Source: Paludisphaera soli (GTDB lineage Bacteria > Planctomycetota > Planctomycetia > Isosphaerales > Isosphaeraceae). From it: a stretch of DNA of 64,000 nt. A program made the position numbers and the translations under genes. The stretch is taken from contig NZ_JAALJI010000020.1 of NCBI RefSeq assembly GCF_011064595.1, forward strand, positions 1 through 64,000. The letters are read 5' to 3'. Positions 19,220 through 22,927 of the stretch are shown here, piece after piece. The first letter of the stretch is position 1. Each line of letters opens with the position of its first letter. Below the pieces are notes generated by a model, which saw nothing but the letters and a program-made list of their open reading frames with translations, had not been told where the DNA came from and did not search any database.

Positions 19220-20121
19220 GCGCGTCGTCCCACCATTCCGATCTGGTCAAAAAGGCCGACGAAGCGGCCGAGGCCCTCCGCGGCGTCGTCGGCGATCATC
19301 CCCCGCAGGTCGCCGTCGTGCTGGGGTCCGGCCTCAACGGCCTCGTCGAGCGGTTCACCGATCGCATGGTGGTTCCCTACTCCCAGATCCCGCACTTCCC
19401 GACGGTCACCGTCGACGGCCACGCCGGCAACGCGGTGATCGGCTCGGTCGACGGCGGGGCCTCGGCCCTGATCCTCCAGGGGCGATTCCACTACTACGAG
19501 GGCCACGACCTCCGCGCGATCACTTTCCCCATGCGGATGCTCCAGCGACTGGGGGTGCAGACGGTCATCCTGACGGCCGCCACCGGGGGCATCCGCGCCG
19601 ACTTGCGCCCGGGGAACCTCGTCTGCCTCTCGGACCACATCAACTTGATCGGCTCCAACCCGCTCCGGGGGCCGGCCGACCCGCGTCTGGGGGCGCGGTT
19701 CCCGGACATGTCCGAGGTCTACTCGAAGCGGCTGCGGACCGCCGCCAAGGAGGAGGCCAAGCGGCTGGGCGTCCACCTGGTCTCCGCCGTCTACGCCTGC
19801 CTCGCGGGCCCGAGCTACGAGACGCCGGCCGAGATCCGGATGCTGCGCACGCTCGGAGCCGACGTGGTCGGGATGTCGACCGTGCCCGAGGCCATCGTCG
19901 CACGCCAGGCCGGGATGGAGGTGCTGGGGCTGGCCCTGGTCACGAACGCGGCGGCCGGCGTGGCGGCCTCGCCGATCCGCCACGAGGACGTGCTGGAGGC
20001 CGGCCGCAAGGCGACGCCGATGCTCGGCAAGCTGATCCGCCGGATGGTCCTGAGGCTGGCCGGCGTCGCGCCGGGGAACGTCGGGTTCAGCGGCGAGTTC
20101 CCGACCTATCGCCAGGACTGA
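19216..20121 (+). CDS. punA: Purine-nucleoside phosphorylase
   Basis: This 301-residue enzyme phosphorolyses inosine and guanosine (trimeric PNP class). LGSGLNG binds phosphate, and FHYYEGHDL, TAATGGI, GPSYETPAEIRML and GMSTVPEAIVARQ form the purine and ribose site. Length suits the mammalian-like trimeric type, about 275-300 residues. The ATG at 19216 overlaps the transporter stop by four bases. With upp, the pyrimidine phosphorylase and NupC it completes a purine and pyrimidine salvage operon. Its 3' end overlaps the convergent HAD gene by 35 bases. Confidence 0.94.
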   Translation: MSASSHHSDLVKKADEAAEALRGVVGDHPPQVAVVLGSGLNGLVERFTDRMVVPYSQIPHFPTVTVDGHAGNAVIGSVDGGASALILQGRFHYYEGHDLRAITFPMRMLQRLGVQTVILTAATGGIRADLRPGNLVCLSDHINLIGSNPLRGPADPRLGARFPDMSEVYSKRLRTAAKEEAKRLGVHLVSAVYACLAGPSYETPAEIRMLRTLGADVVGMSTVPEAIVARQAGMEVLGLALVTNAAAGVAASPIRHEDVLEAGRKATPMLGKLIRRMVLRLAGVAPGNVGFSGEFPTYRQD

Positions 20122-20785
20122 GCCGGGCGATGAGCGTCCGGGCGTCGAACTCGCCGAGGTGGGCGACGACCTCGTCGGCCCCCGCTTCTCGCAAGGCTTC
20201 GGCCGAGTGGCTGGACGTGACGCCGACCGCGAGCATCCCGGCGGCCTTGGCCGCGCGAATGCCCACAGGGGCGTCCTCGAAGACGACCGAGCGCGAGGCC
20301 GCCACGCCGGCCCGCTCGGCGGCGAGCAGAAACACCTGCGGGTCGGGCTTGCCCCGGGTCACGTCCTCGCCCGCCACGATCGCCTCGAATCGGCCGTGCA
20401 GGCCGCACTCCGCCACGGTCAGCTCCAGGTTCGGCCGGACGCCGCTGGACCCGATCGCCAGCAGGACGCCCGCCTCGGTCAGCTCGTCGAGCAATCCCCG
20501 GACGCCGGCCATCAGCGTGATCCGACCCCGCGCCAGGTCGCGGTAGGCGGATTCCTTGCGATCCGAGTACGCGGCCACGTCCGAGTCGGGAAGCGAATCG
20601 CCCAGGATCTTGCGGAGGATCGTGGCGTTGGTCATCCCGAAGGTCTCCAGGATGAACTCGGGAGTGACCCCGAGGCCGGTCTCCCGGCCCATCATCGTCC
20701 AGGAATCCTGGTGGAGCTTCAGGGTGTCCACGAGCACGCCGTCGTGGTCGAAGATGGCGAGGATCGGTTCGGCGGGGCGGGGCAC
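20087..20785 (-). CDS. HAD-superfamily hydrolase, beta-phosphoglucomutase/phosphatase-like
   Basis: This 232-residue protein has all HAD motifs: FDHDGVLVDT (nucleophile and acid Asp), AIGSSGVRPN (motif II), the Lys in GKPDPQVFLLAAERAGV (motif III) and VVFEDAPVGIRAAKAAGM (motif IV). The helical cap between residues 15 and 85 makes it subfamily IA, like beta-phosphoglucomutases and phosphoglycolate phosphatases. Since a glycolate oxidase cluster is in the window, phosphoglycolate is one possible substrate, but sugar phosphates are equally likely. It lies 36 bases after the peroxiredoxin-kinase gene on the same strand and could share its transcript. Confidence 0.85.
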   Translation of the reverse strand: MPRPAEPILAIFDHDGVLVDTLKLHQDSWTMMGRETGLGVTPEFILETFGMTNATILRKILGDSLPDSDVAAYSDRKESAYRDLARGRITLMAGVRGLLDELTEAGVLLAIGSSGVRPNLELTVAECGLHGRFEAIVAGEDVTRGKPDPQVFLLAAERAGVAASRSVVFEDAPVGIRAAKAAGMLAVGVTSSHSAEALREAGADEVVAHLGEFDARTLIARLSPGDRSGTRR

Positions 20786-20821: not shown

Positions 20822-22210
20822 TCAGACCGACTCGCAGACGGCGTCGATCTCGGCGACGATCCGTCGCATGTCGAGGTCGCGTTCGGTGGGGTCGGGCAGG
20901 AGCATGCTGCGGAGCAGGCAGGTGAAAGGCTCGCCCGCCTCCGAGGCCATCCTCTCGGGGTCGACGTTGCGGATCCGGTCCATGACCTGGAGGACGTTCC
21001 CCTCGGCGAAGGCGGGGCGGCCGGTGGCCATTTCGTAGAGCACCGCGCCCAGGGCGAAGACGTCGCTGGCGAAAGTCGCGGGCTCGCCCCGGGTCTGCTC
21101 GGGTGCCAGGTAGCGCGGGGTCCCGAAGAGGCCGTCGCCGGACTCGGCCAGGCCCAGCTCGCTCGTCTCGTCCGGGTTGACCAGATTGACCCGGTGGATG
21201 CGCCGGGCGAGGCCGAAGTCCAGCACCTTCACCAGGCCGTCGCCGCCGACCATGATGTTCTCGGGCTTCAGGTCGCCGTGCACGATCCCGGCGTCGTGGG
21301 CCGCGGCCATGCCGCCGGCGATCTGCCGGGCGACGCTCAGCCGCTCGTCCATCCGCATCTCCGAGTCGCGCAGGTGGTGCGCCAGCGAGCGGCCCTGGAC
21401 GTACTCCATGGCTATGACCGGCAGTCCCGCCGTGTCGTCCACGGCGTAGATCGTGCAGATGTTGGGATGGTTCAACGCGGCGACCGACCGGGCCTCGGCC
21501 AGCACCGTGCTCGGCGTCACGGGGCAGTCGCGTCTGAAAACCTTCAGGGCCACCGGCCGATCGAGCTGGAGGTCCCGCGCCAGGTAGACCCGCGCGAACG
21601 TCCCCACGCCGATCTCGGATTCCATGTAGTAGTGCGAGAAGATGTTGCCCGGGCCGAGCATCGTGTACGGATCGAGATGCGAGCCGTCGGTCATCCAATC
21701 TTCCCGGCATAGCCCGCCGGATTGCAGGGCCGTGAGGACGCGTAGGACCTCCTGGCTGCGACGGCCCACGCTCAGGCTGTGGACGACCTGATACTGGATC
21801 AGGCCCTTGGGATCCACGATGAACGTCCCCCGAACCGCCAGGTTCTGGCGGGGTTCGAACACGCCGTACGCCTCGGAGACCTTGCCGTCGAGGTCGCTGG
21901 CCAGCGGGAAGTTCAGGCCGCCGAGCCCCCCCTGGGCCTTGGGGGTGGTCATCCAGCGCTCGTGCAACTCGACGGTGTCGCAACTGATCGCGAGCACTTC
22001 GCAGTCGAGGGCCGCGAACTCCTCGCGACGCTGGCTCAGCGCGATCAGCTCGGTCGGGCAGACCATCGAGAAGTCGCGCGGGTAGAAGACCAGGACGAGC
22101 CAACGCCCCCGATAGTCCAGCAGTCGAGACCGCTCCCGGAACGGCTCGGGAAGCCTCGTGCGGGGGAGGTCGAAGAGGGGGGCGGGATTGCCGACGAAGG
22201 TGGTTGGCAT
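20822..22210 (-). CDS. Peroxiredoxin fused to Ser/Thr protein kinase
   Basis: This 462-residue protein joins two complete domains. Residues 1-180 are an AhpC/2-Cys peroxiredoxin: FYPRDFSMVCPTEL with peroxidatic Cys51, FPLASDLDGKVSEAYGV, RGTFIVDPKG, and SGGLCREDW with Cys168 at the resolving position. Residues 192-455 are a Hanks-type kinase: GVGTFARVYLA glycine loop, VALKVF with Lys223, HGDLKPENI with Asp313 and Asn318, DFG at 331-333 and GTPRYLAPE. No membrane segment follows, so it is soluble. A peroxide signal controlling the kinase is an inference. The ATG at 22210 starts the peroxiredoxin in register; the open frame extends upstream to 22420 without homology, and no strong ribosome site is visible. 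Confidence 0.92.
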   Translation of the reverse strand: MPTTFVGNPAPLFDLPRTRLPEPFRERSRLLDYRGRWLVLVFYPRDFSMVCPTELIALSQRREEFAALDCEVLAISCDTVELHERWMTTPKAQGGLGGLNFPLASDLDGKVSEAYGVFEPRQNLAVRGTFIVDPKGLIQYQVVHSLSVGRRSQEVLRVLTALQSGGLCREDWMTDGSHLDPYTMLGPGNIFSHYYMESEIGVGTFARVYLARDLQLDRPVALKVFRRDCPVTPSTVLAEARSVAALNHPNICTIYAVDDTAGLPVIAMEYVQGRSLAHHLRDSEMRMDERLSVARQIAGGMAAAHDAGIVHGDLKPENIMVGGDGLVKVLDFGLARRIHRVNLVNPDETSELGLAESGDGLFGTPRYLAPEQTRGEPATFASDVFALGAVLYEMATGRPAFAEGNVLQVMDRIRNVDPERMASEAGEPFTCLLRSMLLPDPTERDLDMRRIVAEIDAVCESV

Positions 22211-22361: not shown

Positions 22362-22853
22362 TCAGCCCGAGTCGCCCCCGTCCGGCTCGCGACGGAATCG
22401 GAAGTCGCAGTGGGGGGCACCTTGCATGAGCGTCTGGGTGCGATTCAGATGGATGTCGGGGCTGAAGCCCTCCGCCAGGGCGAAATCGCGTTGGCACGAG
22501 AGGGTGGAACCAAGGTCTTCGAGCCCGAGGCGTCGATACATCTCGGCGTAGCGGCAGCGGACGACGTTGAACGAAAGCCGGTCGGGCGTGCTTTCGAGCA
22601 GGTCGATCTCCAGGGCGTCGTCCTCCTTCCAGCGGTCGAGGCTGGTGGTGAACGCTTCGAGGGACTGCTCGCCGAGGGCTCGCGCCAGGTCGGCCCCGCT
22701 CTTGCGGGCGAGGTCGACGATCACGTTTCTCAGCACGTCGAGCGTCGCCTCACGGCCGAAGGCATCGGCGAAGCCCCGGATCAGCGGGCCGACGATCTGG
22801 GCCTCGATCTCGCGACGCTGGAGCAGCGTGAGCCTCGGTCCCTGTTCCGCCAT
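22362..22853 (-). CDS. L-2-amino-thiazoline-4-carboxylic acid hydrolase family protein
   Basis: This 163-residue protein matches the ATC_hydrolase family (PF14196). The signature is in its second half: RCRYAEMYRRLGLEDLG, then a Cys in LSCQRDFALAEGF, and HLNRTQTLMQGAPHCDFRF. Characterised members hydrolyse L-2-amino-thiazoline-4-carboxylate in a route to L-cysteine; many relatives are unassigned. The ATG at 22853 has CAGGAG 9 bases upstream. It lies 151 bases upstream of the peroxiredoxin-kinase gene on the same strand. A link through thiol chemistry is only suggested by position. Confidence 0.75.
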   Translation of the reverse strand: MAEQGPRLTLLQRREIEAQIVGPLIRGFADAFGREATLDVLRNVIVDLARKSGADLARALGEQSLEAFTTSLDRWKEDDALEIDLLESTPDRLSFNVVRCRYAEMYRRLGLEDLGSTLSCQRDFALAEGFSPDIHLNRTQTLMQGAPHCDFRFRREPDGGDSG

Positions 22854-22927
22854 AGATCCGGCTCCTGAAGGGAATTCCAGAGTTCGAGGCCGCACGGCGC
22901 GATGCCGAGACGAGCCGGGGGTGGAAC

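Follow-up and report, generated by a model that had tools for sequence, protein, structure and literature searches.

A natural peroxiredoxin–Ser/Thr kinase fusion in Planctomycetota: a likely peroxide-responsive soluble kinase with probable selenocysteine variants

Introduction

Redox biology has yet to settle how a peroxide signal travels from a peroxiredoxin to a protein kinase, since encounters between the two are usually transient. A precedent comes from yeast, in which the 2-Cys peroxiredoxin Tsa1 controls protein kinase A in response to peroxide (PMC7392609). The locus studied here lies in a 64,000-nucleotide stretch of the Paludisphaera soli genome (contig NZ_JAALJI010000020.1, positions 1 to 64,000), hereafter the window, and places both partners on a single chain. 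It therefore raises the question of whether the redox state of a peroxiredoxin can set the activity of the kinase to which it is joined, as the original prediction for this gene supposed. With both partners naturally joined in an almost constant geometry, that question becomes directly testable on one purified protein. Judged from sequence comparison and structural modeling, the gene product would be a soluble bifunctional protein, and a peroxide-responsive Ser/Thr kinase is the most likely description of it.

Gene and domain architecture

The coding sequence occupies positions 20822-22210 of the minus strand and specifies 462 residues, running from an ATG at 22210 to a TGA stop at 20824-20822; all features of the gene given below lie on the same strand, and the plus strand of this interval is interrupted by stops. 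The frame stays open upstream as far as 22420, and the starts of the orthologues match the ATG at 22210. Two Pfam domains, AhpC-TSA (residues 6-140, E 4e-35) and Pkinase (residues 196-444, E 1.5e-44), score far above their cut-offs in this single frame, bearing out the predicted union of a peroxiredoxin and a Hanks-type kinase in one 462-residue chain. The peroxiredoxin half, supported by the AhpC-TSA match and the alignment to human Prx2, comprises residues 1-175 (21686-22210), the linker residues 169-193 (21632-21706), and the kinase half begins at Tyr194 (20846-21631).

Conservation was assessed in an alignment of 48 rows, which correspond to 44 distinct proteins, as some records represent the same species twice. 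Invariant positions are P44, C51, P52, T53, E54, G94, G95, R127, G165, G166 and C168 in the peroxiredoxin half, and G201, G203, K223, E239, H311, G312, D313, K315, N318, D331, P370 and E371 in the kinase half. The residues named in the original prediction (Cys51, Cys168, Lys223, Asp313, Asn318 and DFG at 331-333) all occupy the positions assigned to them, and the invariance of the catalytic residues agrees with its view that both active sites are intact; a pseudokinase or a dead peroxiredoxin is rejected on the same grounds. No frameshift was found at residues 170-200, the linker being in frame in the 47 other rows, and a mis-joined open reading frame is likewise rejected, since the other aligned proteins show the identical architecture.

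The peroxiredoxin half

The N-terminal half has an AhpC-TSA fold with a PxxxTxxC active site, in which P44, S48 (Ser or Thr), C51 and R127 are conserved. The profile of the fusion aligned to human Prx2 (1qmv) over residues 4-182 with an E-value of 5.6e-59. The peroxidatic Cys51 is encoded by TGC (22058-22060) and is Cys in 48/48 aligned rows; the codon is TGA in two further orthologues (L160 and L173), considered below. The resolving Cys168 (21707-21709), within a GG-[LMFV]-C...W signature, is equally invariant (48/48), is followed in the C-terminal arm by W172 (46/48), and falls in a region that aligns with the resolving region of human Prx2. Typical 2-Cys peroxiredoxins (Prx1/AhpC; human Prx2) share with the fusion the fold, the motif FYPxDF[ST]xxCPTE, the catalytic Arg, the GGLG motif and a near-C-terminal resolving Cys. 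By these features, the half is a typical 2-Cys, Prx1/AhpC-type peroxiredoxin and a predicted peroxidase.

It departs from these enzymes in two respects: its C-terminal arm runs on into a kinase, and it lacks the YF motif of the C-terminal helix that marks the hyperoxidation-sensitive subtype, the corresponding region being taken by the start of the kinase. The GG[LVI]G motif is kept, with G97 present in 34 of the 48 rows. Because the YF helix of hyperoxidation-sensitive peroxiredoxins is missing, a sensor based on sulfinic acid appears less likely than one based on a disulfide. The host genome also encodes a standalone AhpC-type peroxiredoxin (L038), so the fusion need not serve in bulk detoxification.

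The kinase half

The C-terminal half contains the glycine loop, the VAxK Lys, the alpha-C Glu, the HxDxxxxN motif, DFG and APE, and is, as far as these motifs tell, a complete Hanks-type kinase with predicted Ser/Thr phosphotransfer activity. The ATP-binding Lys223 (21542-21544) is Lys in 48/48 rows; the catalytic loop HGDLKPEN spans H311-N318 (21257-21280), and the DFG motif, placed by sequence and alignment, residues 331-333 (21212-21220). For residues 184-458, the best solved matches are PknB/StkP. Kinases of this type (3orm, 9ruk) share the full catalytic domain with the fusion, including the Lys, Glu, Asp, Asn, DFG and APE elements. They carry a C-terminal, membrane-anchored PASTA sensor where the fusion has an N-terminal peroxiredoxin, and HRD where it has HGD.

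The HGD catalytic loop is present in 47/47 fusions and in none of the 23 nearest other kinases, a comparison set drawn from five genomes, all of which have HRD or HCD. Lacking the Arg that precedes the catalytic Asp in the RD subtype, the kinase half classifies as a non-RD kinase. It still lies inside the Hanks-type superfamily, for which the RD subtype is not required. Non-RD kinases are often controlled otherwise than by phosphorylation of the activation loop, and the non-RD character would suit control through an attached sensor. At T349, a Thr of the activation loop, conservation is at least 90%.

Linker and structural model

Tyr194, which opens the first strand of the kinase, lies 26 residues after C168 in 44 rows; in the other 4 the distance is 27. 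On this spacing, the linker is equivalent to the C-terminal arm of 2-Cys peroxiredoxins. A model predicted from 43 rows, as a monomer, shows two folded domains (pLDDT 82, pTM 0.57) and a low-confidence or disordered stretch at residues 167-179. It supersedes a first AF2 model built from 17 rows (pLDDT 76), and the arrangement of the two domains is left free by both. Structure and fold searches returned the same two groups of proteins, and none of the chains shown spans both halves.

Distribution and origin

Searches with the peroxiredoxin half identified the fusion in 17/45 genomes of the host family, a count confirmed with a profile spanning the peroxiredoxin, the linker and the kinase N-lobe. 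Wider searches, in which a few best candidates were scored per genome and which therefore yield lower bounds, located it in at least 42/397 genomes of the class sample, across six family groups besides the host's own, and in at least three further genomes elsewhere in the phylum. The architecture is thus present in dozens of relatives with both cysteines and the kinase residues conserved, the pattern that the original prediction proposed to look for. Of the three refuting outcomes named with that prediction, two (no fusion in any relative, and a frameshift at the junction) did not occur. Carriers include Tautonia sociabilis (L073, identical in sequence to L023) and an Isosphaeraceae metagenome-assembled genome (MAG; L069, identical in sequence to L021). 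One further copy lies in a MAG labeled Zixiibacteriota (L076), which could be mis-binned. In the family group that holds the selenocysteine variants described below, 3/95 genomes carry the fusion, so the distribution is patchy, through loss or transfer. No plasmid-borne copies were found at E 1e-40.

In a tree of peroxiredoxin domains, 47 fusion halves fall on one side of a branch with SH-aLRT 99, opposite 98 standalone peroxiredoxins that include the planctomycete standalone proteins nearest by profile. In the kinase tree, the same 47 fusions are separated from the 23 nearest other kinases with SH-aLRT 100. Both trees were built by a quick method, with support values other than bootstrap and with limited comparison sets; both recover the main subgroups, and within the sets examined no separated relatives lie inside the fusion branch. 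On average, two peroxiredoxin halves share 54% identity and two kinase halves 45%, and the values for one half are correlated with those for the other (r=0.89). These patterns fit one old fusion whose halves then descended together; recurrent independent fusions are not supported, as each half forms a single branch.

Three atypical loci were also recorded. A 739-residue fusion (L166:1489-3705, genome G422) carries a long extension behind the kinase and is the most divergent member. Another copy (L179; G155:C6:127265-127975) is interrupted by an in-frame TAG within the N-lobe of its kinase and looks disrupted, as either a broken gene or a sequencing error. An Anaerolineaceae contig (L102) was rejected as a kinase fusion, because its open reading frame ends after the peroxiredoxin.

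Selenocysteine variants

Two orthologues from different genera, L160 (genome G308) and L173/L230 (G332), failed the filter for the Cys motif. Each carries an in-frame UGA exactly at the position of the peroxidatic Cys51, in the context DFSLV-UGA-PTEL (L160:1645 and L230:1636), and the frame then remains open for more than 400 further codons, through the kinase. Both genomes encode tRNA-Sec (72.9 bits in G308 and 74.6 in G332; gathering score 47) and SelB (368 and 358 bits; cut-off 242). A hairpin follows on the 3' side; its 5-nt loop, at nt 21-25 after the UGA, contains GU, and its stem is 8 bp long in L160 but 5 bp in L230, compared with at most 3 bp at the same place in the 48 Cys homologues. 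The L230 hairpin is weak evidence by itself. The features that define bacterial selenoproteins, a UGA at a redox Cys, a SECIS-like hairpin, SelB and tRNA-Sec, thus occur together in L160 and L173/L230, and on this combination the two are probably selenoproteins with Sec at the peroxidatic position. A sequencing error or pseudogene is an unlikely source of the UGA, given the same codon in two genera, the Sec machinery and the hairpin.

The probable exchange of Cys and Sec at residue 51 suggests that the selected residue is the peroxide-reactive one, also for the Cys-bearing host protein, and argues that peroxide reactivity itself is under selection. If the fusions do act as peroxide receptors in the way proposed below, those with UGA would be the first sensor kinases that are selenoproteins. 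As a naturally occurring pair, the Cys and Sec forms offer a built-in test of whether sensing passes through the peroxidatic residue.

Elsewhere in the host genome, outside the window, a TlpA/redoxin-like frame (L209:9582-9944; G000:C68:164581-164943) has two TGA codons at its CxxC position (FWSEV-U-LT-U-RAQWP) and lies 2-4 kb from SelB (C68:158854) and tRNA-Sec (C68:162258). It is a probable UxxU selenoprotein, so Paludisphaera soli itself probably decodes Sec.

Proposed mechanism and alternatives

Prx1-type proteins form decameric rings. In these enzymes, oxidation of the peroxidatic Cys leads to local unfolding of its helix, frees the C-terminal arm with the resolving Cys and shifts ring stability. 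The best solved relatives of the peroxiredoxin half are ring-forming peroxiredoxins. In the fusion, peroxide would oxidize Cys51, and local unfolding together with formation of a Cys51-Cys168 disulfide at turnover would move the C-terminal arm. This mobile arm would be the linker itself, which reaches strand beta-1 of the kinase after some 25 residues, and because the arm continues into that strand, the redox state of the peroxiredoxin could reach the kinase. The redox and oligomeric state of the ring may thereby govern how the kinase domains are placed or clustered, and hence how active they are, with transmission being either mechanical or through ring assembly. The invariant catalytic residues, a linker of almost constant length and the probable replacement of Cys by Sec at the peroxidatic position make such coupling more likely, and we consider a soluble, peroxide-gated kinase with a redox-mobile peroxiredoxin arm as its linker to be probable and the best explanation of the data, the coupling being the inferred part. 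Against it stand the patchy distribution, the lack of oxidative-stress genes among the neighbors at the loci examined and the loose domain arrangement of the model. The wider proposal of a widespread planctomycete family of single-chain peroxide receptors, in which a ring peroxiredoxin signals through its arm to a non-RD kinase and some lineages raise reactivity via Sec, is more tentative and has slightly less than an even chance of being right.

Oxidation could instead be relayed chemically: the oxidized peroxiredoxin would hand it on to a cysteine of the kinase half or of a substrate, with no role for conformation, as proposed for yeast Tsa1 and protein kinase A (PMC7392609). Among the cysteines of the kinase half, Cys252 (HPN[IVL]C, at the start of beta-4) alone is commonly retained, in 43/48 aligned fusions versus 3/23 of the nearest other kinases, and would be the natural candidate. 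In five rows, however, it is replaced by Ser, Gly or Ala, so that the kinase half has no invariant cysteine, and we regard a thiol relay as unlikely. Control could also run in reverse, the kinase phosphorylating the peroxiredoxin half within the same ring and tuning its peroxidase activity, so that the output would be the local peroxide level. Both activities appear intact, and a review covers how kinases phosphorylate eukaryotic peroxiredoxins (PMC6406269), but a non-systematic inspection identified no conserved phosphorylation site in the peroxiredoxin half, and we regard this arrangement as quite unlikely.

An uncoupled bifunctional enzyme, a peroxidase and a kinase merely co-expressed as a single chain, would agree with the open-access papers searched, which report no direct coupling; it fits poorly with the nearly fixed linker, the single ancient origin and the lack of separated relatives within the fusion branch in the sets examined, and is improbable. 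Least probable, for all the ring-forming tendency of the family and of the best solved relatives, is a peroxiredoxin ring that only multimerizes the kinase while its redox chemistry is irrelevant, as such a passive scaffold would require neither invariant Cys51, Cys168 and Arg127 nor the probable replacement of Cys51 by Sec in two lineages.

Relation to known systems

Each half of the fusion belongs to a well-known family; what is new is their union in a soluble Ser/Thr kinase whose probable sensor is a peroxiredoxin. The yeast system is the closest functional analogue, and the peroxide-gated reading differs from it in that Tsa1 and protein kinase A are two separate proteins (PMC7392609), whereas the fusion is one chain with inferred coupling. 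Bacterial Sec-peroxiredoxins of the PrxU type share the probable Sec position with the two UGA orthologues. A 2026 review of selenoproteins in prokaryotes lists Sec-peroxiredoxins without a kinase fusion and uses the word "kinase" twice, both times for a tRNA enzyme (PMC13188914); the host protein, in contrast, has Cys. Multidomain Ser/Thr kinases of Planctomycetota share the phylum and the joining of a kinase to an accessory domain; a 2024 survey of them stresses WD40 and TPR domains, and AhpC, redoxin and peroxide are absent from its main text (PMC11032199). No description of a peroxiredoxin–Ser/Thr kinase fusion was found in the open-access literature, a coverage that takes in few subscription journals. 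The UGA/Sec variants are new here; like the single origin and the HGD signature, they form no part of the original prediction. Planctomycetota have large kinase sets, mostly orphan, and the fusion would supply these with a soluble input for peroxide.

Gene neighborhood

Downstream of the fusion by 36 nt lies a minus-strand gene for a HAD-family, beta-phosphoglucomutase-like hydrolase (20087-20785; Pfam HAD_2, E 1.4e-29), which is probably co-transcribed with it. No oxidative-stress neighbors were seen at the loci examined, and neither the HAD gene nor the ATC_hydrolase gene described next indicates a pathway. A HAD hydrolase gene occupies the downstream position at 13/16 family loci examined, the neighborhood being otherwise variable. 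Upstream, also on the minus strand, an ATC_hydrolase-domain protein of probably about 164 residues (22362-22856; PF14196, E 5.2e-35) is encoded by a gene that is conserved at this position within the genus only (5 loci).
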